From: Rhodohalobacter sp. SW132
GTDB taxonomy: Bacteria > Bacteroidota > Rhodothermia > Balneolales > Balneolaceae
Direction of reading: 5' to 3'
DNA length: 64,000 nucleotides
Assembly: GCF_003390325.1 (NCBI RefSeq)
Contig: NZ_QUOK01000002.1
Coordinates: forward strand, 248,001 to 312,000
Translations under genes and position numbers: made by a program
Notes under the pieces: model-generated
Databases searched by the model: none
What the model saw: only the letters and a program-made list of their open reading frames with translations
What the model was told of the DNA's origin: nothing
Part shown: positions 1,964 through 48,020 of the stretch, one piece after another
Position numbering within the stretch: position 1 is the first letter of the stretch
Layout of the letters: each line of letters opens with the position of its first letter

Positions 1964-1996
1964 TTTTTGATTACTGCTTGTAAAATTGCCTGATCA

Positions 1997-2130
1997 TCTC
2001 ATCTTTCCCTGAGCTGATTATTTGATAAATCACTCCGGGCAGGATTTAGCACCTAACATTCCAGCATCTCTGCCGGAACCGGTTGCTAAGGTTTCACAGG
2101 GCCTGTCCCTCAACCTTTCTGGATAAGAAT
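1997..2130 (-). ncRNA. SAM-I riboswitch aptamer (S-box)
   Basis: Read on the minus strand, the segment has the SAM-I hallmarks. P1 pairs TCTTATC with GATGAGA. The conserved core AGGTTGAGGGACAGGCCC is followed by GTGAAACCTTAGCAACC, then a variable hairpin, GGTGCTAAATCC, and the closing CAGGGAAAGATGAGA. SAM-I riboswitches bind S-adenosylmethionine and usually promote termination. Here a strong terminator follows at 1912-1963, and the downstream genes are a CoA-binding protein and metY, fitting an off-switch for methionine synthesis. Identification is from recognised consensus elements, not a covariance search. Confidence 0.93.
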
Positions 2131-13173: not shown

Positions 13174-13225
13174 CCGATAGAATTGATGAATAATCAGAAA
13201 GAAGAAATTAATAACGAATAATAAA

Positions 13226-15538: not shown

Positions 15539-15594
15539 AAAAGGGCAAATAAAATCGCAAACAGAATTAACACTAACTCAATCATACAAATCCA

Positions 15595-17025
15595 TTGAAC
15601 AACTCAGGTGATAACGGGGTGAAGCTTGAACGGCCAAGGTTAACGTTCAAAGAAAAAGTCGGGTACGGTCTTGGGGATATGGCATCGAATCTGTATTTCC
15701 AGACCTTTGTTCTGTTCCTGCCCATTTTCTATACAGATGTTTTCGGAATTCCTGCCGCTGCTATGGGAACCATGATGCTGGTTACGCGTGTGTGGGATGC
15801 CGTTACCGATCCGGTCATGGGAATGATCGCGGACAGAACTCAGACGCGATGGGGTAAATTTCGCCCCTATATCATCAGTTTTGCTATACCGCTTGCGGTT
15901 GGCGGGGTGCTCGTATTTTCGACCCCTGACCTGGGCGACTCAGGTAAGCTGATCTACGCTTATGCAACGTACATGCTGCTGATGATGCTCTACACCGCTA
16001 TCAACGTGCCGTATTCTGCGCTGATGGGTGTGATCACTCCAAACTCAATGGAGCGTACCGAAGTCTCCTCATTCCGATTTGTGGCAGCCTTCGGTGGTCA
16101 GGTTATTGTAGGTGCTGCCACACTTGGCCTGGTTGAATATCTTGGCGGCGGGGATGAAACGCTCGGCTGGCAGATGACAATGGTAGCATATGGTGCGCTT
16201 GCTGTGGCGCTGTTGTTCGCAACTTTTTATCTCACTAAAGAGAGAGTATCTCCCAAGAAAGAGGTTCGAAACAAACCATCGGCTGATCTCAAAGATCTGT
16301 TTATGAACAAACCGTGGGTACTGGTCGGATTAGCTACGCTTTTCCAGCTTACCTACATAGTAATGAGGGGCTCATCAACTACGTACTATTTCCGCTATTT
16401 TGTTGGCGACCAGCAGTTAAATCTGCTGGGCTGGAATATTGACCTGACATATGCGCTGTTTACCTCCTCCTTTATCACAGCCGGTACGATTGCAACACTT
16501 ATTGGTGCGGTTCTTACGAAATACTTCACCAAGCTGCTTGATAAGAAATTCGTCTACTCCGGCTTTCTGCTCTCAAGTGCAGCGTTTTCATGCGCCTTTT
16601 TCTTTCTTGAACCAGATAACGTTGTGCTGATGTACGTACTAAATGTTCTGGTATCGTTCTTCTTTGGATCGGTTTCCGTACTTCAGTGGGCCATTTACAC
16701 TGATGCAGCCGATTATGGGGAGTGGAAATTCGGCAGAAGGGCGACAGCACTCATCATGGCTGCATCCCTCTTTATGCTGAAGCTTGGCTTAACATTTGGA
16801 GGGGCAATTACCGGATGGATGCTTGAGTTTCATAACTTTGTACCGCTTGCGGAGCAGAGCGAATACACCATCACCGGAATTAAGCTTCTTATGAGTGTTT
16901 ACCCTGCGATATTTGGCTTTATCGGCGGCGCCATCATGCTGTTTTATCCGCTGAGGGATGTTACTATGGTGAAAATCGAAGAGGATCTACTCGCACGAAA
17001 AGAGAAAGCAGGACAGGAATCATAA
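15595..17025 (+). CDS. GPH-family sugar:cation symporter
   Basis: Inner-membrane glycoside-pentoside-hexuronide:cation symporter (MFS, XylP/UidB/MelB type) with about 12 hydrophobic segments. Typical GPH features are KVGYGLGDMASNLYFQ near the N-terminus, the DAVTDPVMGMIADRTQTRWGKFRP motif after TM2, and DAADYGEWKFGRRATAL in the C-terminal half. The frame starts with TTG at 15595. A GTG at 15619 is an alternative. It lies 56 nt after the GH3 gene and 29 nt before a GH10 xylanase. It likely imports xylo-oligomers, xylobiose or aldobiouronates for GH3. Confidence 0.93.
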   Translation: MNNSGDNGVKLERPRLTFKEKVGYGLGDMASNLYFQTFVLFLPIFYTDVFGIPAAAMGTMMLVTRVWDAVTDPVMGMIADRTQTRWGKFRPYIISFAIPLAVGGVLVFSTPDLGDSGKLIYAYATYMLLMMLYTAINVPYSALMGVITPNSMERTEVSSFRFVAAFGGQVIVGAATLGLVEYLGGGDETLGWQMTMVAYGALAVALLFATFYLTKERVSPKKEVRNKPSADLKDLFMNKPWVLVGLATLFQLTYIVMRGSSTTYYFRYFVGDQQLNLLGWNIDLTYALFTSSFITAGTIATLIGAVLTKYFTKLLDKKFVYSGFLLSSAAFSCAFFFLEPDNVVLMYVLNVLVSFFFGSVSVLQWAIYTDAADYGEWKFGRRATALIMAASLFMLKLGLTFGGAITGWMLEFHNFVPLAEQSEYTITGIKLLMSVYPAIFGFIGGAIMLFYPLRDVTMVKIEEDLLARKEKAGQES

Positions 17026-23704: not shown

Positions 23705-26700
23705 ATGAACATAAAATCTACCATTACAACGAGTCTGTTTATGTTGATGTTTCTGGTGGCTTTCTCCACCAGTGCATTTTCGCAAACGGTTATCAATCAA
23801 AACGGTGATTTTTCCGATGCTACGGAAGGTCAGACTGATGAGATAACCAACTGGCTGCTTGAAGGCACAGATCATGCTGATTTCGAAGTTGTTACTGATC
23901 CGGATGATCCAAACAATCTTGTACTTCAGGTAACCCTCACTGATATTGACGGTATCAATGCCTGGGCTGTACAAGCAATGAATACCGGCACTATGTTTAC
24001 TGAAGGCGAAGATTATCAGGTATCGTTCAGAGTTCGTGGTGATCAGGATGGTACTATTCAGCTTGATGCCGGTGACGGCGGCCAGCTATGGGGGCAGCAA
24101 ATAACCGGTGGTGAATGGCATACGCTTGAAACCGGAGTATTTACTCCTACGGAAGATAATGACGGGGAACGTCTCATTGCTATTCACTTCGCTCATGAGA
24201 ACAATGCCGACGAATATGTTTTTTATATCGATGACATCCAGGTAGTTCACCATGAATCGGATGACAATGGTAATGGTGATAATGATACCGATCCTGTCAC
24301 AGAAATTGTAAATGTAAATGGAGATTTTACCGGTGCTGAAATTGGTCAAACAACCGGGATTACAAACTGGGTTTTGGAAGGCAGTGATCTTGCTGACTAT
24401 GAAGTGATTGCTGATCCGGACAATGCTGATAATAGAATCCTTCAGGCAACAATTACGAATATTGAAGGAGCGGAGAATCCATGGAATATCCAGCCGCTGC
24501 ATGTAGATGTTCCCATGGAAGAAGGTGAAGAGTATATAATAACCGCTCGGATAAAATATGACAATGCCGGCGGAGGTTCAGCCGGATCGGTAAGCGTGGA
24601 TGCAGAGGGAGATCTGCCTGCAGTTTACGGCAGAGATATTTCGAGTGGTGAATGGGAAGTAATTGAGCTGTCACCATTTACTGGAGATGCAGATAGATTA
24701 TTTCAAGTCGGTATTCACCTTGGAGCTGCTACGCATGCCAATGGAGATATCCTTTACATAGATTACCTGCTGGTAGAGAAGGTTGAAGAAGCAGATGACA
24801 ACGGTGACAATGGCGAAAACGGTGAAGATGACGAATCATTAGCTCCGAATCCTCCTCACGCGATTGGGGACATCATTAATTACAATGGTAGTTTTCAGCA
24901 TTCAGAGTTAGGCGAAACGGAACCGGTTTCCTGGACCGTTACTGCAAATGCTGGTTCGCAGGTTGCAGTAGTAGACGATGCTGCCGATGAAGATGGGCGT
25001 GCATTGGAATTCAATGTTAACCATACAGGAAATACAAACTGGTATGAAAATGAAGTGGTAAACGAACCCATTCATGTTCTTGAGGGTGATATCCTTCGAA
25101 TGACGGTATCACTGAAAGCCGATACTGATGATCGGATTGCAAGGTTTTACCTTGGTATGCCGGAAAGTGGAGGGTGGGAACGAGCCCGTGGATGGGACAC
25201 ACCCGAATTGAGTCTGACAGATGAGTGGCAAGAGTTTACTTTTGAACACACGGTAACAGCCAACAATGCTACCCACGGTATGAGAGCTGGCATCGAATTC
25301 AATTCTGCAGTGAATGATGAAGCTACAATTCTTATTGACAATCTCCAGGTTGAGAAAATTGGTGTCGGAGAAGCCCAGCAGCGGGTACCTGTAATTGTTG
25401 AGGCTGAATCAGGTGAGTTAGGCGATGAATGGGAAGTTCTTGAAGATGGCGGCACAACCTACATCGTAATAACAACCGATTTTAATGAGACAACCGGCTC
25501 AGCTGCATATCCCGGTGAAAATCGTACCGCATCATATACTGTTTCATTTCCTGCAGAAGGGGATTACGACCTGTACGCTCGGGTACGGGTAGGGGCAGGA
25601 AATTTTGATGACGACAGCTTTTTTGAACCACATGGTTTTGGTGAAAAAGATCCGTCAAATGCGGAAGACTGGTTTAATGTGAATGGCCTTGCCGCCGCAG
25701 GGTATGATGATCCGGATGCAGTCGTTCGTGATGCAGGGGGCCTCGGCAGCGAAGTTTGGAAATGGGTAAATGTTTCCCGCAATGCATTTCAGGGGGATAC
25801 TACTCAAACCTTTACTGTAGAAGGCGATCTTACCAAAATATTCCAGATTGGTGCCCGTGAAGATGGTCAGGAGATCGATAAGTTTGCTTTCGGTAAGTCT
25901 GATCTTTATTTCACGGTTGCCAACCTGGACAACATGGAAGCCGGTTCAGATACCGATCCGCGTGATATACCTGTTCATACCGCTCCAATTGCCGATGGCA
26001 AAGAAAAATGGCTGGGGAACATTTACAGCAGTTCTCAGATTGAGGATTTCGAAGTGTACTGGAACCAGGTTACCGCTGAAAACGCCGGTAAATGGGGAAG
26101 TGTTGAAAGTAGCCGGGGTAATTACAACTGGACTGAGCTTGATGCTTCTTACAATCTTGCTAAAGACAATGGTTTCCCATACCGTTTTCATATCCTTACC
26201 TGGGGTGGACAGCAGCCTGACTGGATTAACGATCTGAGCACAGAAGAACAACTTGTAGCCATCGAAGAGTGGTATGATGCTGTTGCTGAGCGATATCCAG
26301 ACATGGAATATGTGGAAGTGGTAAATGAAGGTTCTAACGGGCACCAATTACCGGACGGACAAAGCGGAAGTGCCAATTACATTGAAGCTTTAGGCGGAAC
26401 CGGTGATACCGGCCACGACTGGATTATCACTGCTTTTGAAATGGCGCGTGATCGATTTCCAGAAAGCAAACTAATGATCAATGATTATAATATTGTATGT
26501 AGTCATTCCGTCAGCTGGTGCTCTAATAATGCCGTGAATTATCGCAATATCATTGAGGACCTTATGGAACGGGACTTAATTGATGTAATAGGTGTTCAGG
26601 CCCATGCATTCTCTACAATGGGATCAACAGAACAAATAATCAATTCATTAGATTATTTAGCTGAGACGGGCTTGCCAATTCAGGCTACTGAAATGGATAT

Positions 26701-27229
26701 CGATGGAGCGCCGGGTGAATCAAATGAGGAGTCGGATCAGGCGCAGCTTGAAAATATGCAACGCATATTTCCGGCATTCTGGGAGCATCCGGCAGTAGAG
26801 GGTGTAACGTTCTGGGGCTGGAGGCCCGGACTCTGGCGTCAGGATCAGGATGCTTTTCTTATCAGAAGCTCAGGTGTTGAACGGCCCGCTCTTACATGGC
26901 TCAGAGAATATGTTGAAGAAACGGATCTAAGTGTTTCAAATGAAATAGTAGAAGGAGAGTCTCCTATGCAGTTTAGACTCTACGACAACTACCCGAATCC
27001 GTTTAACCCAACAACACAGATACGGTATGATATTGCCCGTACCTCTGACGTATCCGTTCGGGTATATGATGTGCTGGGACGACAAGTGCAGACACTTGTT
27101 AACACGCAGCAATCACCCGGTACATACACACTCACATTTGATGCGTCTAACTTGTCATCTGGTGTGTATTTCTATAGAATACAAACGGACTCTTTTGTAG
27201 ATGTAAAACAAATGATGCTGGTTAAATAA
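23705..27229 (+). CDS. multi-CBM GH10 endo-xylanase with T9SS tail
   Basis: Secreted retaining endoxylanase, 1174 residues. Order: signal peptide (to about 27), CBM A (28-190), CBM B (200-365), CBM C (385-555), a CBM6/35-like module (560-755, beginning VIVEAESGELGDEW), GH10 barrel (765-1085), and T9SS tail (1095-1174, [11 protein letters not shown]). Acid/base E875 is in EVVNEG and nucleophile E996 is in QATEMDID. The barrel carries a TAENAGKWGSVE variant of the GH10 N-terminal motif. It is a close paralog of the minus-strand enzyme at 36969. Extracellular or surface-attached xylan backbone cleavage is expected. Confidence 0.95.
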   Translation: MNIKSTITTSLFMLMFLVAFSTSAFSQTVINQNGDFSDATEGQTDEITNWLLEGTDHADFEVVTDPDDPNNLVLQVTLTDIDGINAWAVQAMNTGTMFTEGEDYQVSFRVRGDQDGTIQLDAGDGGQLWGQQITGGEWHTLETGVFTPTEDNDGERLIAIHFAHENNADEYVFYIDDIQVVHHESDDNGNGDNDTDPVTEIVNVNGDFTGAEIGQTTGITNWVLEGSDLADYEVIADPDNADNRILQATITNIEGAENPWNIQPLHVDVPMEEGEEYIITARIKYDNAGGGSAGSVSVDAEGDLPAVYGRDISSGEWEVIELSPFTGDADRLFQVGIHLGAATHANGDILYIDYLLVEKVEEADDNGDNGENGEDDESLAPNPPHAIGDIINYNGSFQHSELGETEPVSWTVTANAGSQVAVVDDAADEDGRALEFNVNHTGNTNWYENEVVNEPIHVLEGDILRMTVSLKADTDDRIARFYLGMPESGGWERARGWDTPELSLTDEWQEFTFEHTVTANNATHGMRAGIEFNSAVNDEATILIDNLQVEKIGVGEAQQRVPVIVEAESGELGDEWEVLEDGGTTYIVITTDFNETTGSAAYPGENRTASYTVSFPAEGDYDLYARVRVGAGNFDDDSFFEPHGFGEKDPSNAEDWFNVNGLAAAGYDDPDAVVRDAGGLGSEVWKWVNVSRNAFQGDTTQTFTVEGDLTKIFQIGAREDGQEIDKFAFGKSDLYFTVANLDNMEAGSDTDPRDIPVHTAPIADGKEKWLGNIYSSSQIEDFEVYWNQVTAENAGKWGSVESSRGNYNWTELDASYNLAKDNGFPYRFHILTWGGQQPDWINDLSTEEQLVAIEEWYDAVAERYPDMEYVEVVNEGSNGHQLPDGQSGSANYIEALGGTGDTGHDWIITAFEMARDRFPESKLMINDYNIVCSHSVSWCSNNAVNYRNIIEDLMERDLIDVIGVQAHAFSTMGSTEQIINSLDYLAETGLPIQATEMDIDGAPGESNEESDQAQLENMQRIFPAFWEHPAVEGVTFWGWRPGLWRQDQDAFLIRSSGVERPALTWLREYVEETDLSVSNEIVEGESPMQFRLYDNYPNPFNPTTQIRYDIARTSDVSVRVYDVLGRQVQTLVNTQQSPGTYTLTFDASNLSSGVYFYRIQTDSFVDVKQMMLVK

Positions 27230-27717: not shown

Positions 27718-30678
27718 ATGGCAAAAAAGTTTACAGAAATTATTTACATACTTTTTCTATTGGTATTTGCTCTTTTTAGTACCGCATCATTTGGGCAAGA
27801 TACCGGTGATATAAGAGGTACAGTAACTGATGCAGTTACAGGAGAAACACTCATTGGAGTAAACCTGATGATTGAAGGCAGCAGTCAGGGAACCGCAACA
27901 AATGTATCTGGTGAATATGTTATAAGGAGAGTGCCTGCCGGAACTCATAACCTTGTTGTAACATATATAGGTTATCAAAGGATTGTTGAAGAAATTGAGG
28001 TAACAGCAGGCGAAACGCTCGAGGTCGATTTCGTAATGCAGGAGATGGCACTTGAAGGTGCGGAGGTAGTTGTTACCACTCAGGCAAGAGGACAGCGAAG
28101 TGCAATTAATGAGCAAATTAGCTCACGTTCTATAACGAACGTGGTATCGGCTGACAAAATTCGTGAATTGCCCGACGACAATGCAGCCACAGCTTTGAGT
28201 CGACTCCCCGGAATTTCTCTTCAGGATGGGGATAAAGTTGTTATTCGTGGAATGCAGGCAAGATATAACCAGGTAATGGTGAACGGTGTTTCATTACCGA
28301 GTACAAGTGACGGAGATCGTTCTACGAACCTCGGATTTATCTCATCGAACATGCTTGCAGGAATTGAGGTAACAAAGGCTCTGCGCCCCGATATGGATGC
28401 AAATTCACTTGGAGGTGTTGTGAATTTGAGACTTCAGGAAGCACCTGAGGGAGTCAATTCGGATGTGATGCTACAGGGTACATATAACACCCAGGATCAA
28501 ACATCCCGTAACTATCAAACATGGGCCAGTGTAAGCAATCGTTTTTTTGAAAACAGACTCGGCGTTTTTGTGCAGGGAAATGCTCGGCGTTTTGATGGCG
28601 GGGGGGAATCTGCAAGCGCTACATGGGAACGATTGGGTTCCGATCCAGGGTATGGGCTTGCTCCCTATGGAATGTCGGAATTTACATTTCGTGATAATAT
28701 CAGCGTAACGGAAGAGTATGGCGGTAGCGTACTGATGGATTACAGAATTCCAACAGGCTCGATTAAATTGCAGAACACCTACGCGTATACTGAATTGGAT
28801 CAATTTAGCCATTTCGACCATTTGCTTCTTGGCAATGGCGGGCGACAGGTGCGTGCTGAAAGGGATAACAACAATCGTCATCTGCTGGTAAACGCACTAC
28901 AGGTTGAAAGTGATTTCGACATCTTTAAAGTAGATTTTGGCGTATCTCACTCTGCAAGTCAAAAAGAGACCGGCCTTAGATATGCTATAGAGTTTCCTAT
29001 AAGTAATGCATTTCCATCCTTTGGGGAATCACAAAGACGTCAGCTAACACCAGCAGATATCTATGATATCACATTTGATGAAGATAGATTTTCTGCAATG
29101 ACGGCTGGCAACGGTTCAACCCGGGATGAATATTTTCAGGAGAGGCAAATTGTTGCAAACCTAAATGTTACGGTCCCCGTACAGATTACAAGGAACATTA
29201 GTGGTGATTTTAAAACGGGTGCAAAAGTAAATTACCTTTCCCGGGAAAATGATGTGACACGCTATTTTGCCAGGCTTTCTGAAGGCAGTAATAATGCCGC
29301 TGCAGCTGATTTTCTTAGCAGCATAGGTGTATCAAACCCTAATTCTGCATTGCGTTTTACTGATTTTCAGGATCAGGTATACCCCACCGGTCGGGGGTCT
29401 TATTTCCTGCAGGGTGATTACAGGCTCAATCAGGTGATACGATCAGACTATATGGATCAGTATATGACTCTTGCTCCTACAGGCTGGGGTTCACCACACG
29501 TACCGGATTCCCGGCGGTTTGACTATGATGCAAATGAAACCCTTTCTGCTGCATATGTTATGGCTGATTTGGATATCGGATCTCGCCTTTCCCTGCTTTT
29601 TGGTGCACGGTACGAACACTTTAATATGGATTATGAGGGCAGCTTTGTTCTTCAAACTCAGTTTACAGGGCAAGGCCAAACTGACCTGACCAATCCTGAG
29701 CTTGATACTCTGAATACCGCAAACCGGAGTGTAGATCATTTTCTCCCGAATCTACAGTTAAGATATAAATTTACAGATTGGCTGGATTTGCGTCTTGCTT
29801 ATACACGAACTCTTTCCCGGCCGAACTACAATCAGTTAATGCCATCTATCTTTATTGCCAGCGATGGTGGCACTGGAGATGCAGGTAACCCAACTCTTGA
29901 ACCGACAGTATCTAATAATTATGATGCGTATCTATCTATATACGAAAATAGAATAGGACTCTTTACAGTTGGTGGATTTTACAAGCATGTTGATGGTGTT
30001 ATTCTTTCGAATCAATTCCAGCGAAGAAATTTACCCGAAAACATTGTTTGGCCCAGTGAGGATTCAGGACTGCCAAGAGCACGCGAAACAGATTTAATCA
30101 CCACGTTTAGTAACAACCCAAATCCTGCACATGTGTACGGACTTGAGTTTGAATGGCAAACCATATTTTGGTATCTGCCAAGGCCACTCGATTCAATGGT
30201 ATTAAATGTGAACTATACGAGAACCTGGTCTGAAATGGATTACAGACAAATTAGAAATGTTCGACAGGGTTTTGACCCAATCGATTTCCAGCCAATACTC
30301 GTTGAACAAGACACCGCAAGAAGCGGGCGACTCGAACAGCAGGGGAACCATATTGTGAATGTGGCACTTGGCTCCGACTACAGAGGTTTTTCCGGACGGA
30401 TCTCCTTCAGAATGCAGGCTGATGTATTAACAGGTCTCGCGACACGCCCTGAGCTGGATACTTTTACCGGAAACATCTATGGATGGGATTTTACAATCCG
30501 TCAGCAACTACCGTTAGAAGGCTTGAGTCTGTTCCTGAATGGCATGAATATAACTCATTCTCCCACTGAAAATTTCCGGGAATTCCGAAGAGAGTCCGAC
30601 GGAGAGGTATTGTCTAATTTAAGCGCCTTTAATTACAATCCGAGAAGATTTGAGCTCGGTATCAGATACAGTTTTTAA
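27718..30678 (+). CDS. TonB-dependent outer-membrane receptor
   Basis: Outer-membrane active transporter, presumably importing xylo-oligosaccharides. The 986-residue product has a signal peptide (to SFGQ, about 27), an N-terminal carboxypeptidase regulatory-like domain (30-115, RGTVTDAVTGETLIGVN), the plug (about 125-240, with SRLPGISLQDGDKVVIRGMQ) and a 22-strand-type barrel ending in aromatic F (GIRYSF). It lacks the usual SusC-type partner: no SusD gene is next to it or anywhere in the window. The following gene encodes a T9SS-secreted beta-helix-like protein. Confidence 0.92.
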   Translation: MAKKFTEIIYILFLLVFALFSTASFGQDTGDIRGTVTDAVTGETLIGVNLMIEGSSQGTATNVSGEYVIRRVPAGTHNLVVTYIGYQRIVEEIEVTAGETLEVDFVMQEMALEGAEVVVTTQARGQRSAINEQISSRSITNVVSADKIRELPDDNAATALSRLPGISLQDGDKVVIRGMQARYNQVMVNGVSLPSTSDGDRSTNLGFISSNMLAGIEVTKALRPDMDANSLGGVVNLRLQEAPEGVNSDVMLQGTYNTQDQTSRNYQTWASVSNRFFENRLGVFVQGNARRFDGGGESASATWERLGSDPGYGLAPYGMSEFTFRDNISVTEEYGGSVLMDYRIPTGSIKLQNTYAYTELDQFSHFDHLLLGNGGRQVRAERDNNNRHLLVNALQVESDFDIFKVDFGVSHSASQKETGLRYAIEFPISNAFPSFGESQRRQLTPADIYDITFDEDRFSAMTAGNGSTRDEYFQERQIVANLNVTVPVQITRNISGDFKTGAKVNYLSRENDVTRYFARLSEGSNNAAAADFLSSIGVSNPNSALRFTDFQDQVYPTGRGSYFLQGDYRLNQVIRSDYMDQYMTLAPTGWGSPHVPDSRRFDYDANETLSAAYVMADLDIGSRLSLLFGARYEHFNMDYEGSFVLQTQFTGQGQTDLTNPELDTLNTANRSVDHFLPNLQLRYKFTDWLDLRLAYTRTLSRPNYNQLMPSIFIASDGGTGDAGNPTLEPTVSNNYDAYLSIYENRIGLFTVGGFYKHVDGVILSNQFQRRNLPENIVWPSEDSGLPRARETDLITTFSNNPNPAHVYGLEFEWQTIFWYLPRPLDSMVLNVNYTRTWSEMDYRQIRNVRQGFDPIDFQPILVEQDTARSGRLEQQGNHIVNVALGSDYRGFSGRISFRMQADVLTGLATRPELDTFTGNIYGWDFTIRQQLPLEGLSLFLNGMNITHSPTENFREFRRESDGEVLSNLSAFNYNPRRFELGIRYSF

Positions 30679-30778
30679 CGACATCAATCAACCCTAACCA
30701 ATCAACCCAAACTAAGCTACCACAAGACAAAACAACCGATCAATAAATCAAATCAAAAAGAACACAGGTGAACCAAAC

Positions 30779-32611
30779 ATGAAAAAAGCACTACTACTAT
30801 TACTGTTTATGAGTATGGCCGGTATGTACAATGCTATTCATGCACAAACTCTTATGGATTTTGTGGATGAAGTGCGCGGCGACACACTAGTCATTAAAAG
30901 TATTAACGATTTGGGAGAACCAAACTCACTAATCGATGCCATGGATTTAGACGTGGATGCACCTGAAGGAAGGGTGTATGAACTTAAAAGAGGAAACTCT
31001 TATTTGCAAGACCGGGGGCCCTACAATCTTCCGACTGATCGTAAAACCCGTATAGTTGGCGAACAGATGGGTTCCATCGTAACTGAAGGAGGAGACCGCC
31101 CGCCACGAATTGCAGGAACTGTAGATGCTGAAGGAAGCCCGCAGGGTTTCAACTTTCTGGGTGTCCAAAGCGACTTCGAACTTAAGAATGTAGCGGTTCA
31201 CGTAGGTGCATCTGACGGTACAGAAGAATGGTTTGCTTTTGAAATGACCGGTAATAACCTTGATGTAACCTTCGAAAATGTTCTGATGGAACATAATTCC
31301 TGGACCTTCATTCAGTCTAATAATGGTGAAAATAACAGCCTTACGATTCGCGACAGTTACTTTCTGAACATGACCGGATTAGCCGTCCGCAGAAATGGTG
31401 GTATTTACGACAGTGAAAACGAGCCGCTTCGAAAGCTTTTGGTTGAAAACTCAACCCACCTTCATGCTGCCGGTATGATGTATAAATTCAGGAATCACGC
31501 CCCTGACTCCGCTGTTTTTAACAGAAATACATTTGTAAATGCGTCAGGTCAGCTTTTCACAAGTATTGGATATGAGCACAACTTAACCGTTACTCATAAC
31601 CTGTTTGTAAATAGTAATGTACAGGCGTATTATCCGGGTTTGGATGTTAACGAAACCGATCAGGACTTTTTACCGCATGGGATCATCAACCTGAATCACC
31701 TGCCGGATGGAAGTGATGTTGCAGACAATGAACGTAAAGTACTGGTTGCTCATAACGGTGTATTCTGGGATGATCAGCTGGATACCATAGTCGAAACCCT
31801 GAATGCTGAAAACGTTCCCTGCCCCGGGGATGAAGGAGAATCCGAATGCCAGGAGGGTGGACAATGGATGACTCAGATGATTACAATGAATAGCAGAACC
31901 CAGGAGATTTTCGACGATAATGATCGGTATCCGTACATTAACGAAGCAAACTGGGTGATGGCTGGTGACCCTCAGTTTACCGATCACGGTGGATTAATGA
32001 CTACTGCACTGGATGATGTAATTGAGTGGGCAATTAATACTGCCGGCCCCGGAAACACGACTCTGATGGCCAAGTGGAGAACTCCTGGCAATGAAGCACA
32101 AACCGGAGAAGGACAGAACTTCTTCAACTTTGACTGGCCAGTAGCAGCGGACCTTTCGTATTCCAATACGGATTATTACAATGCAGGTGGCCTGAATCGT
32201 TTTCCAATTGGTGATCTTAACTGGTTTCCAGACTATAAAGCTCAATGGGTAGCGTTGCGTGATGATGAGTATGCCCAATTAGGTGAAGCTCTGAACACAG
32301 GGAATATCCCCGTTTCTACCGAGTCTGTTGTTCAGGATCGCCCAACTACGATTGAGTTGAAACAAAACTATCCGAATCCGTTTAACCCATCAACTGTAAT
32401 TGAGTATACACTTGCTCAAACTCAGGAAGTTACTCTTGAGGTGTTTGATGCGACCGGACGAAAAGTGGCTACCCTTGTTGACAATAACGTGCAACAATCC
32501 GGTACACACAATGTACGTTTCAATGCAAGCAACTTAAGCAGTGGTATTTACTTCTACCAACTCACTGCAGGAAATCAAATGTTGACAGGAAAGATGACAC
32601 TTATCAAATAA
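30779..32611 (+). CDS. secreted beta-helix-like protein with T9SS tail
   Basis: The 610-residue protein has a signal peptide (to IHAQ, 22-23), a parallel beta-helix-like body (about 30-500) of N-rich strand repeats (SLTIRDSYFLNMTGLAVRR, VFNRNTFVNASGQLF, LTVTHNLFVNSNV), and a T9SS tail (525-610, [13 protein letters not shown]). No catalytic polysaccharide-lyase residues are recognised, although some pectate-lyase-like or DUF4957/DUF5123-type glycan-binding beta-helices look similar. It is 100 nt after the TonB receptor gene, in the place where SusD normally sits. A surface glycan-binding role is inferred. Confidence 0.8.
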   Translation: MKKALLLLLFMSMAGMYNAIHAQTLMDFVDEVRGDTLVIKSINDLGEPNSLIDAMDLDVDAPEGRVYELKRGNSYLQDRGPYNLPTDRKTRIVGEQMGSIVTEGGDRPPRIAGTVDAEGSPQGFNFLGVQSDFELKNVAVHVGASDGTEEWFAFEMTGNNLDVTFENVLMEHNSWTFIQSNNGENNSLTIRDSYFLNMTGLAVRRNGGIYDSENEPLRKLLVENSTHLHAAGMMYKFRNHAPDSAVFNRNTFVNASGQLFTSIGYEHNLTVTHNLFVNSNVQAYYPGLDVNETDQDFLPHGIINLNHLPDGSDVADNERKVLVAHNGVFWDDQLDTIVETLNAENVPCPGDEGESECQEGGQWMTQMITMNSRTQEIFDDNDRYPYINEANWVMAGDPQFTDHGGLMTTALDDVIEWAINTAGPGNTTLMAKWRTPGNEAQTGEGQNFFNFDWPVAADLSYSNTDYYNAGGLNRFPIGDLNWFPDYKAQWVALRDDEYAQLGEALNTGNIPVSTESVVQDRPTTIELKQNYPNPFNPSTVIEYTLAQTQEVTLEVFDATGRKVATLVDNNVQQSGTHNVRFNASNLSSGIYFYQLTAGNQMLTGKMTLIK

Positions 32612-32647
32612 TTGTCTGATTTCTTCCGTTAGCATGATATGTTTATT

Positions 32648-32681
32648 GCCCCGATTATAATTCATAATCGGGGCTTTTTTT
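32648..32681 (+). terminator. Rho-independent terminator after the beta-helix gene
   Basis: Perfect 11-bp stem GCCCCGATTAT/ATAATCGGGGC with a 5-nt loop and T7 tail. It probably ends the receptor and beta-helix transcript before the foldase gene. Confidence 0.92.
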
Positions 32682-32713
32682 ATATTATTGAATACATCAC
32701 ACAGCAGAAATAA

Positions 32714-34486
32714 ATGTTCAGGAAGCACATGAAATTTTCCTTTTCAATTCTAAAGCCGGCTCTCTATTTAACCGCAATTTCCGCACTTTTTTTGTTATCC
32801 TGCAATGCTGAAAATGAACCAGTAAATGAGCATATCATCGTATCTGTTGATGATGATTACTCCCTTTATTTTCCGTATATCCAAACATTTTACTCAAATC
32901 ATGAATTTGGTGCCCGGTACCCTGATAGTGAATTTAAAGGATATGAAGAGGCAATTGATTACCTGGTTACAAATCATTTAATGTTCGTTGATTTTTTTGA
33001 AAAAGAGATGCACCGTGATCCTGATCTGGAATATGAATTGGCAAGGATCATAAATGAAGATTTAGAGAATGTATATTTTGAGGAACAATACCTGTCTGAC
33101 TATATCAACGAAACGTCAATCAATCGCTACTACCAGGGGATGCAGAAAGAGATTCAATTCAGCCAGATTGTTCTTCCTGTTCAGTCCCAGTCGGCTGAAT
33201 CAAGACAAGAACTGGATGATGTCATAGAGGATATACTTGATGCGATTTCAGAGGGTGAAGATTTTAGCCGGTTAATGAACCTCTATTCCAGAGAAGACAG
33301 AATTGCAGGAACTCAAAGTGGAACCCGTGTACTTCGCGGTGATCGGGACAGAACAACGCCGTTGTTTTCTCAACTATATAACTTAAATGAAGGCGATGTA
33401 AAAGTTCTGGATACCGGTGCTTCGCTGCTTGTGGTTCATATTGACAGAGTTGACCGGATCGATGCACCACCGCTTGAAAATGTAAGAAATGATATACTTC
33501 GCAACCTAAGGAATATTCATTACAACGATATATATGTAGAATTTGAAAATGATAAAAACCGTATCGTAAATAAAGAAAATGCAGATTGGAATGAGGAGGC
33601 ATTGGAGAAACTTACAACATGGTCTGCTCAGCCCGAGTTTTTTACTGAACAATATCAAACCGTGATACAAGATGAAATTTCAGCCGATCGGGATATTGAA
33701 ATTCTTTCCTATAACAATTCAACGGTTTATCTCAGCGACTACCTTAGAATACTGGATACCATTCTGATTCCTCAGCGGTCAAGGGGAATGAACACCGAAC
33801 AAATGAAAAACTTTTTAGTTGAAGCCGTTCAGAAAGACGCTATCGTAAAAAAAGCCCGTGAGATGGGACTTGATGAAAACATCTTAAATGCAAATCGTCA
33901 GAATCCGGCATTGAGGAGTCGCATAATTCAGATTTATGATCGTGAAATCATTGAATCACAAATTCCTGAAGCAACCGATGAACGTATTGCAGAATTTTAT
34001 GAAACCAATCGTGACTCACTCTTTTGGGAACCCGCAAAGGTAAATCTCTTCGTGCATTTTTATGACACCAGGGATGAAGCCGAAGCCGCATGGTCACGAT
34101 ACCAAAACGGGGCAGAGTTTGAAAATCTTGAATCCGGCTATTCTGTACGAACTTTCATCATAAACAGAGAAGGCAATATTGAGTCTTTTATGAGAAGGGA
34201 AACCCCATACCTGGGCGAAGCAGCATTCAGTATTGATCAGGGTGAAGTAGATGGACCAGTTGAATTTACTCACGACCAACATGGACAACAGTTTGCAATC
34301 ATAAAAAGCGCGAACAGAGAAGAGGAAAGAATTCTTGAAATTGCGGATGTTGAAAACCGCATTGACAGAATGTTCCGTGAATATCACAGAAAAGAAATTT
34401 TAAGCCAGGTTAAGGCTGATCTCTGGGATCGGTATCCGGTTACGATCTATAAAGATAACCTGCAGCGGAATATAGCTGAACTTTGA
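32714..34486 (+). CDS. SurA/PpiC-like peptidyl-prolyl isomerase, lipoprotein
   Basis: Putative periplasmic chaperone. The 590-residue protein begins with a signal ending FLLSC (lipobox Cys30) and contains two parvulin-like rotamase segments, one at about 155-250 (IQFSQIVLPVQSQ, then LNEGDVKVLDTGASLLVVHID) and a weaker one at about 430-545 (KVNLFVHFYDTRDEA, LGEAAFSIDQGEVDGPVEF). The flanking regions are alpha-helical, as in SurA. It may assist folding of the TonB receptor or the large secreted enzymes. It sits between the receptor/beta-helix pair and a GH43 gene. The start may be Met1 or Met6 (32729). Confidence 0.82.
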   Translation: MFRKHMKFSFSILKPALYLTAISALFLLSCNAENEPVNEHIIVSVDDDYSLYFPYIQTFYSNHEFGARYPDSEFKGYEEAIDYLVTNHLMFVDFFEKEMHRDPDLEYELARIINEDLENVYFEEQYLSDYINETSINRYYQGMQKEIQFSQIVLPVQSQSAESRQELDDVIEDILDAISEGEDFSRLMNLYSREDRIAGTQSGTRVLRGDRDRTTPLFSQLYNLNEGDVKVLDTGASLLVVHIDRVDRIDAPPLENVRNDILRNLRNIHYNDIYVEFENDKNRIVNKENADWNEEALEKLTTWSAQPEFFTEQYQTVIQDEISADRDIEILSYNNSTVYLSDYLRILDTILIPQRSRGMNTEQMKNFLVEAVQKDAIVKKAREMGLDENILNANRQNPALRSRIIQIYDREIIESQIPEATDERIAEFYETNRDSLFWEPAKVNLFVHFYDTRDEAEAAWSRYQNGAEFENLESGYSVRTFIINREGNIESFMRRETPYLGEAAFSIDQGEVDGPVEFTHDQHGQQFAIIKSANREEERILEIADVENRIDRMFREYHRKEILSQVKADLWDRYPVTIYKDNLQRNIAEL

Positions 34487-34591: not shown

Positions 34592-36871
34592 ATGAAAAAA
34601 ATAGTTACAATCTGCTTATTAAGTATAGTATTGCTGATCTGTTTACCAATGCTTGTCTATTCACAATCCGGTAAAACATTTATCAACCCGATCATACCGG
34701 GAGATCACCCTGATCCAACTCTTACCAAAATCGGGAATTATTTTTACTCATCCGGCTCTTCGTTTAATCCTACTCCAAAAATCTATCGCTCAACCGACCT
34801 TGTGCACTGGGAAGCCATCGCTCAGCCTGTAAAAGCATCCTGGTCTACCTATGGCGATCAGCCGGGCGGAGGTGCCTGGGGCGGCCATACAGTTTATCAT
34901 CACGGAAAATACTGGCACTATTTCGGCCGTGGAGGAGGGAACATGTATTTTGTAACTGCAAATGCACCTACAGCCGGCTGGAGTGATCCGGTTGAACTCC
35001 AGCGTTTCGGAAATCTACCGCCATATGGTGTGGATAACTCAATATTTATAGATGAAGAAACCGGAAAGTGGTACCTGTTAACAAAAGCAGGGCACGAAAA
35101 TAATCACATGATTGAGTTAGGAGAAAATGGTCAGCCGACAGGCGAATTTCTCGATCTTACCTGGTTGAATCCCGATGATGAAGGTCTTCCGTATGGATGG
35201 GCTGAGGGACCCGTAATGTGGAAACATAATGACTTTTATTACTACAGTTTCGCTGAACATCTGGTGGGTGAGCAGTACGTGATGCGTAGTGATACCTTAA
35301 CCGATAATCCCGATGATTGGGAAATTATGAGTGGTAACATGTACTACGGCTCAAGGGGTACATTCGATCGTCCCAATCATATTTCACCGGCTGTAACTCT
35401 GGATGATGGTACAAGCTGGGCGATCGGCCACAGCTATCACACAAACAACAACTGGCAGGCCCAGGGAAGGCAAGGTCTGCTCCATGAAATTACGTACGAA
35501 GACGGCTGGCCCCGAATTGAATTTCCGCCTTCTCACGAAACAGACGCACCCAATCTGCCGAACATAAACAATATTCCATGGATGGTGCCGAAATCTGATA
35601 TGTTCAATACGGCCAGGTTAAACCCTGCATGGTCCGTTTTAGGATATACTCCGGATGGAATGATCTCTTTATCTGACCGCGCAGGCTGGGTGAGACTTGA
35701 ACCCCATAACAACTACACAAGTCTGATACAGAATGATGGCGAACATCAATACTCAGCTATCACACGTGTTGATTTTGAGCCCGATGCGGATTCCGATCAG
35801 GCCGGTTTATGGATCATCAACGGGCCACAGAATCTATCGGTCAGAGTATACAGCTCAGCCAATGCACAAGGCGATCCAATTCTTGGATTTCGTTTTGATG
35901 ACACCGTTTATGAAGTGGAAAATACGGTGGGTTCTGCTGTATGGCTGAAATTGATCCGTAATGATCACACGGTATCGGGCTATTTCAGTGATGACGGGGA
36001 TAGCTGGACCCAGATCGGTGAGGAGATCAATGCTATTGAGTTGGGACGTCATCAGAATGATTTCAATGATTTTACCGGCAATCAGCAAGGATTATTTGTA
36101 GAAGGAAAAGCGGCATTTTTCGATCTCTACGTATATCGTGATGCTTATACGGAAATTATGGGAAGAAAACCTGCAAACTACTCGGGTGCCCGTCCATCAG
36201 GCTCAGGTTCCTTCCTTGGCTCAATTAGTAATGGGGACTGGGCGATGTATGCCGGTGTTCAATTTGGTACATCTTCTCCATCGAACTCCGGTGTGGATTA
36301 CCAGAAATCTGCAAGACAGATTAACCTCACAGCTTCCAGCAATGGCCACGGCGGTGTTGCTGAGGTTTGGCTTGGCGGCATCGAAAACGGTGAAATGATT
36401 GCTGAAGTTCAGATTGAAGATACCGGGAGCAACGCCAGCTATTCGACCTTCAGTGCGCCTACTGCAAGAGATATCACGGGCAGCCATGATGTGTATCTGC
36501 GCTTTACAGGATCTGATGGTGTTCCTGAACTTTTCAGATTGCAAAGCTTATCGTTTTCCACTGAGATAACTACTTCCAGTGAGAGTATAGCAGACGGAAC
36601 GAATCCAAGAGAGTTCAGGCTTCAGCAGAATTATCCAAATCCTTTTAATCCTTCAACTGTCATTACATATCAATTACCGGCAGGTGATCAGGTTTCACTG
36701 AAAGTATTTGATATGCTTGGCCGTGAAGTGGCGACACTGGTTGACGGCATGGTTTCTTCCGGTGAACACAGGGTTACATTTGATGCATCAAATCTTACCA
36801 GCGGGATGTATATCTACCGCCTGCAGGCAGGGGAGAGAGTACAAACCAGGAAAATGATGCTCATCAAATAG
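34592..36871 (+). CDS. GH43 beta-xylosidase/arabinofuranosidase with CBM6 and T9SS tail
   Basis: Inverting arabinosidase or xylosidase. The 759-residue protein has a signal peptide (to SQSGK region, about 25), a five-bladed GH43 propeller (28-320) with general base D41 (HPDPT), pKa-modulator D148 (GVDNSIF) and acid E205 (AEGPV), a beta-sandwich domain (330-525), a CBM6-like module (about 530-660, GVDYQKSARQINLTASSNGHGG) and a T9SS tail ([11 protein letters not shown]). It is a T9SS-secreted enzyme. The exact activity within GH43 cannot be decided from motifs. It follows the foldase gene by 105 nt. Confidence 0.92.
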   Translation: MKKIVTICLLSIVLLICLPMLVYSQSGKTFINPIIPGDHPDPTLTKIGNYFYSSGSSFNPTPKIYRSTDLVHWEAIAQPVKASWSTYGDQPGGGAWGGHTVYHHGKYWHYFGRGGGNMYFVTANAPTAGWSDPVELQRFGNLPPYGVDNSIFIDEETGKWYLLTKAGHENNHMIELGENGQPTGEFLDLTWLNPDDEGLPYGWAEGPVMWKHNDFYYYSFAEHLVGEQYVMRSDTLTDNPDDWEIMSGNMYYGSRGTFDRPNHISPAVTLDDGTSWAIGHSYHTNNNWQAQGRQGLLHEITYEDGWPRIEFPPSHETDAPNLPNINNIPWMVPKSDMFNTARLNPAWSVLGYTPDGMISLSDRAGWVRLEPHNNYTSLIQNDGEHQYSAITRVDFEPDADSDQAGLWIINGPQNLSVRVYSSANAQGDPILGFRFDDTVYEVENTVGSAVWLKLIRNDHTVSGYFSDDGDSWTQIGEEINAIELGRHQNDFNDFTGNQQGLFVEGKAAFFDLYVYRDAYTEIMGRKPANYSGARPSGSGSFLGSISNGDWAMYAGVQFGTSSPSNSGVDYQKSARQINLTASSNGHGGVAEVWLGGIENGEMIAEVQIEDTGSNASYSTFSAPTARDITGSHDVYLRFTGSDGVPELFRLQSLSFSTEITTSSESIADGTNPREFRLQQNYPNPFNPSTVITYQLPAGDQVSLKVFDMLGREVATLVDGMVSSGEHRVTFDASNLTSGMYIYRLQAGERVQTRKMMLIK

Positions 36872-44436: not shown

Positions 44437-47400
44437 TTATTTCACCAGCACCATCTGCCGGGTTTGGACGTCGTCTCCGGCCGTAAGGCGATAAACGTAA
44501 ACGCCGCTGGAGAGACCAGAGGCATCGAATGTAGCCTGGTGGTGGCCTGACTGAACCGGGCCATCCATAAGAACGGCAACGCGACGGCCGAGCATATCAA
44601 ATATTTCAAGGCGCACATCACTTTGAACCGGAAGCTGGTATCCGATTACCGTCACAGGGTTGAATGGATTGGGGTAGTTTTGGTCGAGCTGCACTTCTCG
44701 GGGCAGTTCCGTACCCGGCTCGATATCGATTGCAGTTTCACCATCCACGCTGATGGACGTTACCGCCATTTTGGAGCGCTGACCGCTCTCTTCATCCAGC
44801 CGCTCCCCGGTGTAGTAATACCGCCACAGAAGTTGTACGTACGCTTTGTTCTCAGCCTCTTGCGGCAGTGTCACCGGCCCGATCCATTCGCTGTGGCCCT
44901 CTTCATCGTTTCGTTCATATTCCACCGGATCACCATCTTCAGTCAGTAAATCCTGGAACTCACCCTCGTTTCCGATTCGGTACTGCAGCTGCAGGTTGTA
45001 CACTCTTGAATTTGGGCGAATGGTGCTGCCCTGCCAGTGTACGGAGATGTTTTTCATCTCCTGCGTGTCAAGAGCCAGTATTGCCCCGCCGAGGGTGGTG
45101 CCGGGATAGCCGGGGTTTCCATCCTCGTTTCCGGTGTTGATGAACGCAAATCCGTCTTGACCCAGTCCGTTGATCCGGGTGCGTGAATCTAAATCGTACA
45201 CGCCATCGGTAAAGCCTGCAACCTGTGCCGTCAGCTCCGGATCGCGCTCATCCATATACACAAACGCCATGTTGTCGGGATAACTTCCAGCCTCGGCATC
45301 GGCCGGCCACTCATCAAATTGATAGGAGCTGTCGCTCAGCCGGTGTGCAACAGGGAAGAGGTTGGCGTTGGGGTCTTCTTCAAACACGGCGGTTACCGAT
45401 AGGGGAGATGTGAGATTATGGCTGAACTCCGTCAGGTGAGATTCGGCGTCGATCCCTTCCCAGTGGGAGAACCGATAGCCGGGCAGGGGCTCGGCTTTCA
45501 GCGTGACGGGAATCCCCTCAAAATAGGTTCCGGTCCACGGATACGGCTCCGGGCCGATCCCCGGCGTCTCCCCGCTGATGGCGATCGTGTTCACATGAAC
45601 AAACCCTTCGGCGGGGTTCGAGATATCAACGGTTATGTCATGCTCGTTTTCAATTTCAAAAAAGTCGAACAGATGCTGGCGAGCGTAGCCCGGACGTTGT
45701 TCTGCGTAGTTAACCAGGTTAGCTTCAATCCGGCCTTCCCAATCGCTGAGTCCGCCCCAGGGCCTGCTCCACCGCTCGTGATGCTCTGCAATTTCAGGCT
45801 GAATTCGATCCGTCATCTCACGAATAACACGAACGATCCAGTCTGTTCTGAATCCGCTGTTTAACTGATCCAGATACCGCGTGATGAAATCATTCCGGAA
45901 TCTCTCATTCTCCAGCAAAGATCGAAATATAAATGTTGACCAGGATGGGTTTGGCCATGAATCCCCGTCGGGGTAGGCGGCAAATTCCAGGGTATTATGA
46001 TGGGCGCCTTCGCCGAAGCGGCTGAATCCAAAATCGGTATCAAATAACAGCCATCGCCATCTTCCGTCGAGCTGACCGGGTGCATCCGGATTGTAACTGT
46101 CCGTTCGATATCGCCAGTAGTCGATGTTATTGCCGGGCCAGTCGGTATTCCCAACAAAGATCTGTGCAATTTGATAATCGATAAAGTTATCTGTATCCAT
46201 CCGGGTTTGAATATCTTCGTAGTGATGGTCTTGGGCTATATCATTCTCTTCCATGTAATTCCACATCTGCGTATAGTGAAGATCATCGCCTTCCTTAATG
46301 GTAGAACTGCCGCTGAGCAGGTCGATGTTTTCTGGATCAGCACCGTGAACCCGCTCCAGGTAATGTTTATCATATCGCTCTCTCATGCTCAGAATTCCCC
46401 AGTATTCACCGTTAATAAACACGATGTACGGCTGATACGCCTGCGTATCGAAATTCATGTGACCCACCATATTCTGAATCATTGGGTCGCGGATCATCAT
46501 ATTATCCCAGTCGTTTCCACTGTTGCGCAAAATCAGCCGGTTGTACTCGTTGTAGGGGTTGTCGGGGATCATTTGATGATAAAACCGATTATCTCCATAC
46601 TGATTGCGGGCATAGAGGCGGAATGATTTTATCGGGAATGACCGGCTTGATCCGCCATGCAGCCGAACACCCAAATCCTGGTTGAAAACACGCTCTGTTA
46701 CACCAGGTTCAAATATCTCCATCGAAGCGGGGCGCTCCCACTCGATTCCACGCTGGTTATAGTTGGCCACCGCATGATGACTATTGTACATCGGGTTCAC
46801 ATCGTCATAAATTTTACCCGGCACATACATTCCCGTTTCATAATCGAACAGGTAATCCTCCTGGATGGATAGAGAGATCACCGGCAGGGTGTAACGTTCT
46901 TCGGGTTGATCGGTTACAAAGTAGGTGTGAGTATCCGGTTTCGGTGAGGAATAGCCATTCTTTACCGCGACAGCACGAACAGCCGTACCTTTGAAGATCG
47001 GGTCATCAGGAAAATAATAGGGATGTTCATTTGATTCATATGTAGTTTGTTTACGGCTTAGATAATTCGGCTCATCGGATCTGTCATCAATTGTTAAAGT
47101 TGAGCCGGGTTCATATATCAGGGTTTCGTAACTGCGTTCTTGCAAATCGCCGGAGGGCCGGTAACGATCCATGTAGGAATAGGTTTGACCGCCCACTTTT
47201 TCAGGATCCGGCTCCGACCCGTCCAGTGTATAATAGATAGTTACATCCGGGTCGGGGTGGGAGAGGGTGAGTTCAAAAGGTGTATCATAAAAACCGCCGG
47301 TGTGCGAAAATTCAATAGGGTCGAGAATATCCCGGTAGCCGTCATCTCCGTTGGGTTCGCCCGGGGTGGGGTGGTCATAGAAATACCAGTCACCGGTGCC

Positions 47401-47871
47401 GTCGGGGTAGCGGCCCAGGCTGATGTCAGTGGGGATTTCAGTGGGTTCCAGTTCATCGATCCGCTCGCCATTTGGTGTGGTCAGCAGTACCTCTTCACCG
47501 GCTGAAGCGATACTGAAATTTGTATGTAACTCATCTTCTGGATCACTGCGATCTTTTCCGGATGCCCAAACCAGCAGAAACTCCCCCGGCTGGATTGTCA
47601 AATCTGGAAATTCCCATCGGAACGGGCGGTCATAATCATCAGACAAGCCAAAACCTTCCAGGTTCAGCGGCTGGTCCCCGGCGTAGTAGAGTTCGATCCA
47701 ATCTTCGTTATCGCCATCTTCATCAGTAATGCCCCACCCGTTGGAGGCGAGAATTTCATTCAGAAAGAGTTGCTGGGCTGAAACCTGACCGGGTTCCAGA
47801 AAAATTGAGGCCACGAACAGGAAAGAGAGGCAGAGTAGCGTTTTATAAATTGCACCGGCAGAGATCTTCAT
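44437..47871 (-). CDS. CotH-like/lamin-tail surface protein with T9SS tail (copy 1)
   Basis: The 1144-residue protein (ATG 47871, MKISAGAIYK) has a signal peptide (to SAQ, about 33), a lamin-tail domain (about 35-150, LNEILASNGWGITDEDGDNEDWIELY), a CHB_HEX_C-like domain (about 175-245, YYTLDGSEPDPE), a CotH kinase-like domain (about 330-690, HGGSSRSFPIKSFRLYARNQYGDN), an InlB-repeat-like and sandwich region, and a T9SS tail ([11 protein letters not shown]). CotH-like domains resemble spore-coat kinases; here a kinase function is unproven. It is a close paralog of the protein at 51985-55422. It may be a surface adhesin or matrix protein. Role in xylan use is unknown. Confidence 0.88.
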   Translation of the reverse strand: MKISAGAIYKTLLCLSFLFVASIFLEPGQVSAQQLFLNEILASNGWGITDEDGDNEDWIELYYAGDQPLNLEGFGLSDDYDRPFRWEFPDLTIQPGEFLLVWASGKDRSDPEDELHTNFSIASAGEEVLLTTPNGERIDELEPTEIPTDISLGRYPDGTGDWYFYDHPTPGEPNGDDGYRDILDPIEFSHTGGFYDTPFELTLSHPDPDVTIYYTLDGSEPDPEKVGGQTYSYMDRYRPSGDLQERSYETLIYEPGSTLTIDDRSDEPNYLSRKQTTYESNEHPYYFPDDPIFKGTAVRAVAVKNGYSSPKPDTHTYFVTDQPEERYTLPVISLSIQEDYLFDYETGMYVPGKIYDDVNPMYNSHHAVANYNQRGIEWERPASMEIFEPGVTERVFNQDLGVRLHGGSSRSFPIKSFRLYARNQYGDNRFYHQMIPDNPYNEYNRLILRNSGNDWDNMMIRDPMIQNMVGHMNFDTQAYQPYIVFINGEYWGILSMRERYDKHYLERVHGADPENIDLLSGSSTIKEGDDLHYTQMWNYMEENDIAQDHHYEDIQTRMDTDNFIDYQIAQIFVGNTDWPGNNIDYWRYRTDSYNPDAPGQLDGRWRWLLFDTDFGFSRFGEGAHHNTLEFAAYPDGDSWPNPSWSTFIFRSLLENERFRNDFITRYLDQLNSGFRTDWIVRVIREMTDRIQPEIAEHHERWSRPWGGLSDWEGRIEANLVNYAEQRPGYARQHLFDFFEIENEHDITVDISNPAEGFVHVNTIAISGETPGIGPEPYPWTGTYFEGIPVTLKAEPLPGYRFSHWEGIDAESHLTEFSHNLTSPLSVTAVFEEDPNANLFPVAHRLSDSSYQFDEWPADAEAGSYPDNMAFVYMDERDPELTAQVAGFTDGVYDLDSRTRINGLGQDGFAFINTGNEDGNPGYPGTTLGGAILALDTQEMKNISVHWQGSTIRPNSRVYNLQLQYRIGNEGEFQDLLTEDGDPVEYERNDEEGHSEWIGPVTLPQEAENKAYVQLLWRYYYTGERLDEESGQRSKMAVTSISVDGETAIDIEPGTELPREVQLDQNYPNPFNPVTVIGYQLPVQSDVRLEIFDMLGRRVAVLMDGPVQSGHHQATFDASGLSSGVYVYRLTAGDDVQTRQMVLVK

Positions 47872-48020
47872 GAAAAATCGTTCATTACATTTGCCCAAAG
47901 CATAGGAAACTTTTATTCAATTTGTAAACCCGGTTTGAGGATAGGATATCGATCATTCAATTTCTTTCCTGTTTATATCCAACAAACAGATGAGTCGCTA
48001 ATTAATTTACAGTTACATTA

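Follow-up and report, generated by a model that had tools for sequence, protein, structure and literature searches.

A TonB-dependent receptor paired with a T9SS-secreted beta-helix protein, a candidate SusD-independent glycan importer in a glucuronoxylan locus of Rhodohalobacter sp. SW132

Genes of the glucuronoxylan locus

The window, that is, the whole analysed stretch of 64,000 nucleotides from Rhodohalobacter sp. SW132 (contig NZ_QUOK01000002.1, here C2, positions 248,001 to 312,000), is a glucuronoxylan locus. Its carbohydrate-active and transport genes encode GH67, GH3, a GPH symporter, three GH10, a SASA esterase, GH43, GH30 and GH115, with the GH67 alpha-glucuronidase, GH3 and GPH symporter genes in the inner part of the locus (10993–17025, plus strand). 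A GH10 xylanase with CBM4_9 and a T9SS tail (23705–27229, plus strand) precedes three genes read from the same strand and separated by gaps of about 100 nt: a TonB-dependent receptor of 986 aa (27718–30678), a T9SS-secreted right-handed beta-helix protein of 610 aa, proposed here as the glycan-capturing partner of the receptor (30779–32611), and a SurA/PrsA-like lipoprotein of 590 aa (32714–34486). The next gene, also on the plus strand, encodes a T9SS-secreted protein with GH43, GH43_C2 and CBM6 (34592–36871). The sequence-only reading of this DNA had described a receptor, a T9SS beta-helix-like protein and a two-parvulin lipoprotein in this order, and the three ORFs were indeed found in place on one strand.

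Two minus-strand genes inside the xylan locus (44437–47898 and 51985–55422) encode proteins of 1153 and 1145 aa with identical domain make-up, namely CotH kinase, lamin tail and T9SS tail. A SAM riboswitch (RF00162, 75.5 bits) is found at 1996–2129, minus strand.

The receptor consists of a CarboxypepD_reg-like domain (aa 32–119), a Plug (aa 136–234) and a TonB barrel (aa 455–945). It scores 341.1 bits with TIGR01782 (TonB-Xanth-Caul) over aa 116–986, above the curated cut-off of 310, and only 55.7 bits with the SusC/RagA model TIGR04056 (cut-off 368), this match being confined to the N-terminal 180 aa. In the PDB, the sole match of the receptor profile was XusA, in its N-terminal part. The earlier idea of a SusC that had lost its SusD did not hold: these scores, together with the SusC outgroup in the receptor tree (see below), rule out a degenerate SusC and place the receptor in a SusD-independent family. 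Since the receptor is TIGR01782-type and not SusC-like, the absence of SusD beside it is expected. A search for SusD (PF07980) yielded no gene and no SusC/SusD adjacency within the 64-kb window, in agreement with the sequence-only reading; all 26 SusD_RagB places of the genome are in other loci, the nearest (C2:206368–207180) lying about 41 kb ahead of the window start. Hence SusCD is present in SW132, but not for the xylan receptor unit.

The mature beta-helix protein without its tail, referred to below as the body, occupies 30845–32293 (plus strand). It is followed by a Por_Secre_tail/TIGR04183 domain (aa 531–606; 32369–32596, plus strand), which scores 47.5 bits with Por_Secre_tail (cut-off 27) and 47.3 bits with TIGR04183 (cut-off 23) and identifies the protein as a type-A T9SS cargo. 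Such a tail was found on 124 of 129 beta-helix relatives, three of the other five being cut by a contig end. The body contains the signature P-x-G-D-L-N-W-F-P (32204–32230, plus strand; aligned positions 454–462), in which P, G, D, L, N, W and F are invariant in 64 aligned relatives and the last P is conserved in at least 90%. The Pfam Beta_helix match of the 610-aa protein is sub-threshold; an AlphaFold2 model of the body built from the alignment of 64 relatives is a beta-helix (pLDDT 93.9, pTM 0.94), as had been read from the sequence.

A search of the SW132 genome with the full-length protein returned 57 places, nearly all of them T9SS tails, and body-only profiles were used instead. Among solved proteins the body profile had one good match, residues 431–694 of the alginate lyase BcAlyPL6 (E 3.5e-11), which form its C-terminal helix; the alignment to the N-terminal, catalytic helix of the same enzyme was insignificant. 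The structural comparison by VIA-align gave the same result: the top five matches were C-terminal domains of two-domain PL6 structures (Z 22.1–28.5; the best was 7dmk 426–747, Z 28.5), and the next beta-helices had Z of at most 19.7. The body is thus a stand-alone homolog of the PL6 C-terminal beta-helix domain. The window protein does not belong to the PL6 lyases, their catalytic N-terminal helix having no significant match and no CAZyme Pfam model being found in the 64 members. The idea of a known CAZyme was rejected, as neither Pfam nor NCBIfam assigns any of the members to a CAZyme family. In these two collections the bodies matched only the generic Beta_helix model and, in a single weak case, DUF4957 (E 0.0034 for one of the 64 members, below the Pfam cut-off; none for the window protein). 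DUF5123 was likewise below its cut-off (18.5 bits against 35.1, E 0.0046, in locus L041). One relative (L162:7576–10659, on G022:C17), a protein of 1027 aa encoded after a receptor, carries the beta-helix body twice in tandem, with a single T9SS tail.

Pairing of receptor and beta-helix protein within the genome and across lineages

TIGR01782 receptors occur at six sites of the SW132 genome, and at four of them, the window (C2), C4:280852, C5:327994 and C9:68351, a protein of the beta-helix family is encoded directly downstream. The four paired T9SS proteins (568–876 aa) share the P-x-G-D-L-N-W motif and have about 25% identity to the window protein. Their settings differ: xylan in the window; probably alginate at C4:280852, as judged from two genes resembling PL17/heparinase-type lyases; mannan at C9:68351, as judged from a GH130 phosphorylase and an epimerase in the equivalent locus L156; and no CAZymes at C5:327994. 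The probable alginate-type receptor (L040:8850–14074) has an STN domain, and FecR-like and ECF-sigma-like genes lie upstream of it, that is, receptor-coupled regulation. At the two remoter receptors, C4:34815 and C3:127498, other proteins occupy the partner position.

Relatives were searched with a profile of the four SW132 bodies, which yielded 80 loci in Balneolota, Ignavibacteria/Melioribacter, Neomarinimicrobiota, KSB1, Calditrichota, Saprospiraceae and Bacteroidales. Within the order, 34 of 129 genomes carry the family; in an even draw across the phylum, 54 of 392 do. One hundred and seventeen distinct beta-helix domains were collected; the upstream gene was known for 112 of them, and in 102 cases it was a receptor on the same strand, directly upstream, with a median gap of 79 nt.

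We then considered the receptors themselves, using a tree of 146 tips (FastTree; SH-like support, not bootstrap) that combined receptors found by the receptor search with those from beta-helix loci. The sorting model for this search had been built from the four SW132 receptors, and it is the tree, not the score, that served as the test. All 90 receptors directly preceding a beta-helix gene fall in one clade of 94 tips (support 98) spanning Balneolota, Ignavibacteria, Neomarinimicrobiota, KSB1, Calditrichota and Bacteroidales. The four remaining tips are a split receptor (L115), a receptor separated from the beta-helix gene by one gene (L145), a receptor at a contig end and an artefact (L134), where the beta-helix ORF is present but hidden by the ORF filter. 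The order of receptor and beta-helix gene seen in the window is kept in relatives.

Receptors outside this clade have other partners, and the notion that every TIGR01782 receptor has this beta-helix partner was rejected: the sister set precedes beta-helix-like proteins of other kinds (bhX and bhY), proteins of about 360–480 aa and T9SS proteins of 670–790 aa. At L043:8099–12722 a remoter TIGR01782-like receptor is followed by bhX, a different beta-helix-like protein; the pairing recurs in L219, L220, L223, L224, L226–L228, L232 and L233, bhX being a T9SS protein or a lipoprotein, and the pair in the SW132 genome adjoins ftsH-like and 2-oxoglutarate-dehydrogenase-like genes. In L206, L207, L209 and L211 (for example, G025:C11:45750–55871) three TIGR01782-type receptors alternate with T9SS proteins of 670–790 aa, and these arrays are kept in several genomes of the family.

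The two proteins also co-vary. The similarity matrices of receptors and beta-helix proteins (41 pairs) are correlated with a Mantel r of 0.947, the best of 999 permutations reaching 0.129, and the cross-genome best hits of the two proteins agree in 229 of 264 cases, with 100 expected. This demonstrates joint descent. Contact between receptor and beta-helix protein would fit the same pattern, but so would two genes inherited together as a unit whose products never touch. Some beta-helix copies have no receptor (L092, L098, L100–L102, L104, L076 and the tandem copies of L190); therefore, the protein can have another use.

The sequence-only reading had held that a SusD-family gene near a homologous receptor in relatives would speak against an alternative uptake unit. 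This objection was not borne out: among the 80 loci L075–L154 (flanks up to 10 kb) and the regions L156–L193, SusD was found near a homologous receptor only in L134, about 2.7 kb away and behind an opposite-strand gene. At the genome level, no SusD was detected at E 1e-8 in 18 of 30 near-complete carriers of the beta-helix family (completeness 96–100%), among them the one-contig G041, which has four beta-helix copies. At E 0.001, 13 of 20 genomes holding beta-helix loci had no SusD match, among them G247, where the beta-helix occurs 17 times. Some assemblies have two handles (for example, G235 is G022), so that the two sets share members and are not additive, and many of the SusD-free genomes are MAGs or drafts in which a very divergent SusD could escape detection. 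With the pairing conserved, present four times in SW132 and carried by many SusD-free genomes, the earlier suggestion of an alternative uptake unit with a beta-helix protein in the SusD position gains support.

The SurA/PrsA-like third gene

The third protein has Rotamase_2 and Rotamase_3 matches above the Pfam cut-off, its profile matches PrsA (E 2.4e-10) and SurA (E 1e-5), and Foldseek retrieved PEB4, PrsA and SurA, in line with a SurA/PrsA-like chaperone fold. It is built of two tandem modules, each with a chaperone and a parvulin part, and has a lipobox with Cys30; an alignment between its halves (hhalign, E 8.9e-6) demonstrates internal duplication. Parvulin domain 1 (aa 142–243; 33137–33442, plus strand) has a conserved YxQIVL where SHILI is expected, and in domain 2 (aa 421–547; 33974–34354, plus strand) an invariant Ala replaces the strand-4 His. 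With the catalytic positions set by register to SurA/PrsA, strand 1 of domain 1 has Gln in 18 of 23 relatives and His in none, its strand 4 has His in two of 23, and strand 4 of domain 2 has Ala in all 23. An active parvulin-type PPIase was rejected on these residues, the strand-1 and strand-4 catalytic histidines being missing. Because both domains lack them, prolyl isomerase activity is unlikely; a chaperone-type role is possible. Of the foldase proposed earlier, the two parvulin-like domains and possibly the chaperone function are thus retained, and isomerisation is not.

The gene is restricted to a single clade of 36 beta-helix tips, the xylan-type clade, where 27 tips carry it: 26 with a receptor upstream and one cut by a contig end. 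Among the other tips, seven have neither the SurA-like gene nor a receptor and two are cut off downstream, so that no resolvable tip of the clade has a receptor without the SurA-like gene. GH10 xylanases are nearby in eight of 27 carriers, against two of 82. The culturable Gracilimonas mengyeensis (L078) is among the organisms with the xylan-type unit. A lipobox is present in about half of the SurA-like proteins, while the others apparently have a plain signal peptide, which suggests the periplasm as the probable workplace of the protein. In most relatives' xylan-type units the SurA-like gene is followed by a gene for a membrane-type protein of about 775 aa with a central spermidine-synthase/methyltransferase-like domain (for example, L077:10967–13294, L083:8025–10391, L166:11428–13749, L080:13616–15955 and L112:16146–18467); SW132 has no ortholog of it, only a distant relative on C1.

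Proposed function and likeness to known systems

We consider it fairly probable that the products of the locus import glycan across the outer membrane without SusD, with a T9SS-delivered beta-helix protein that captures or positions the glycan at the receptor and a dedicated chaperone-like helper. The beta-helix protein would be exported by the type IX system and tethered at the cell surface, where it would bind xylan chains or oligosaccharides freed by the neighbouring GH10, GH43 and GH30 enzymes before passing them on to the receptor, in the way that SusD, BtuG or XusB deliver their ligands. A ligand held over the TonB barrel by a surface protein is the working mode of such systems (PMC13142918). 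The receptor would import the glycan with TonB energy, and GH67, GH115, GH3 and the GPH symporter would be involved in its breakdown inside. The SurA-like protein would most likely aid folding or periplasmic crossing of the receptor or its partner, because its relatives include plain-signal-peptide forms with neither lipobox nor T9SS tail. The homology to the PL6 C-terminal domain and the gene context point to glycan binding by the beta-helix protein, which may also form a complex with the receptor. The type-A tail implies tethering to surface polysaccharide, from which a position on the receptor does not follow.

The beta-helix protein might instead be a surface enzyme, a lyase, glycanase or esterase that trims the glycan for the receptor and is linked to it only genetically. 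We regard this as unlikely, even if polysaccharide lyases and GH28 often have a beta-helix fold, and even if the C-terminal domain of BcAlyPL6 is reported to hold the substrate in an appropriate conformation, to form a closed pocket and to have a weak lyase activity of its own (review PMC8618178). The similarity is to the C-terminal and not to the catalytic N-terminal PL6 helix, and no CAZyme family is reached by any member. Among the charged residues, D457 of the GDLNW motif is the only one fully invariant in the 64 relatives, and a 90% threshold adds only D36, H227 and R297. Furthermore, one family serves xylan, mannan and probable alginate loci alongside their dedicated enzymes, a pattern better matched by broad glycan handling whose specificity varies locally than by a single enzyme reaction.

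A type-A T9SS tail attaches its protein to polysaccharide at the cell surface and does not hold it in a 1:1 complex; this and the receptor-less copies also fit a protein that binds surface glycan without touching the receptor, in the manner of an SGBP or an adhesin, its adjacency reflecting co-regulation only. This reading seems to us somewhat less likely again than a trimming enzyme, as one would hardly expect a helper of this kind, judged by those of SusCD loci, to lie almost always beside a single receptor clade and to co-vary with it so strongly. That the three genes are unrelated neighbours by chance in an ordinary xylan cluster, where many T9SS enzymes make a T9SS neighbour unsurprising, is contradicted by the recurrence of this order in roughly a hundred distinct loci from several phyla and is very improbable.

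The importer reading can be extended, more tentatively, to a third class of TonB-powered glycan importers beside SusCD and lone receptors. Its beta-helix lid, ancestor or descendant of the PL6 C-terminal domain, would reach the surface via the type IX system, serve several polysaccharides (xylan, mannan, probably alginate) and replace SusCD in SusD-less lineages of the wider Bacteroidota group; we hold this to be possible, with the balance slightly against it. If true, a TonB transporter would have a partner that arrives through the type IX system and not by the lipoprotein route, and a family that no curated model describes would gain a testable role. The recurring pairing and the many SusD-free genomes suggest a second, largely unstudied route of polysaccharide uptake. 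SusD is a widely used marker for polysaccharide utilisation loci; if the pair does the work of SusCD, SusD-based locus finding misses glycan uptake in Balneolota, Ignavibacteria, Neomarinimicrobiota, Calditrichota and KSB1. We found nothing relevant on a TonB receptor with a beta-helix partner in the open-licence literature, and a prior description elsewhere is possible.

Like SusC/SusD, the unit lies in a CAZyme locus and has, directly after the gene of the TonB barrel, the gene of a partner exported to the cell surface. Unlike it, the receptor is of the TIGR01782 and not the TIGR04056 type, the partner is a T9SS-exported beta-helix and not a helical SusD lipoprotein, and the family is present in many SusD-free genomes. 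The TIGR01782 receptors of Xanthomonas and Caulobacter belong to the same family as the window receptor, which exceeds the curated cut-off. No obligate beta-helix partner is known for them, unlike for the present clade. They are SusD-independent and serve plant carbohydrate scavenging (PMC1790865). In BtuB-BtuG and XusA-XusB (PMC10404256, PMC13142918) the TonB transporter is also paired with a non-SusD surface protein, a beta-propeller lipoprotein that sits lid-like on the barrel; their ligands, however, are B12 and siderophores, and the present partner is a beta-helix with a T9SS tail and only a putative lid.

The two-domain PL6 lyases (AlyGC 5gkq, BcAlyPL6 7dmk, Patl3640 7o77, and 8bwk) contain in their C-terminal beta-helix the nearest solved relative of the body, but the window protein has no PL6 catalytic module and stands alone with a T9SS tail, and its family is not limited to alginate loci. 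The DUF5123/DUF4957 proteins of Bacteroides loci, such as the product of a DUF5123 gene that is listed alongside pectinesterases and a TonB receptor for BT4109–4114 of B. thetaiotaomicron (PMC10434189), resemble the beta-helix family at a level that remains under the Pfam cut-offs. The third protein shares chaperone helices and parvulin folds with SurA, PrsA, PEB4 and BamM, the last being a recent parallel, a PPI-fold lipoprotein found at the cell surface on the Flavobacterium BAM (PMC12611786); it differs from them in its duplicated module, in the absence of histidines from both parvulin sites and in the confinement of its gene to one type of uptake unit. By analogy, we think that the receptor unit may work like SusCD, BtuBG or XusAB, yet it is a member of none of them. 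The novelty is the partner: its fold, its export route and its distribution.
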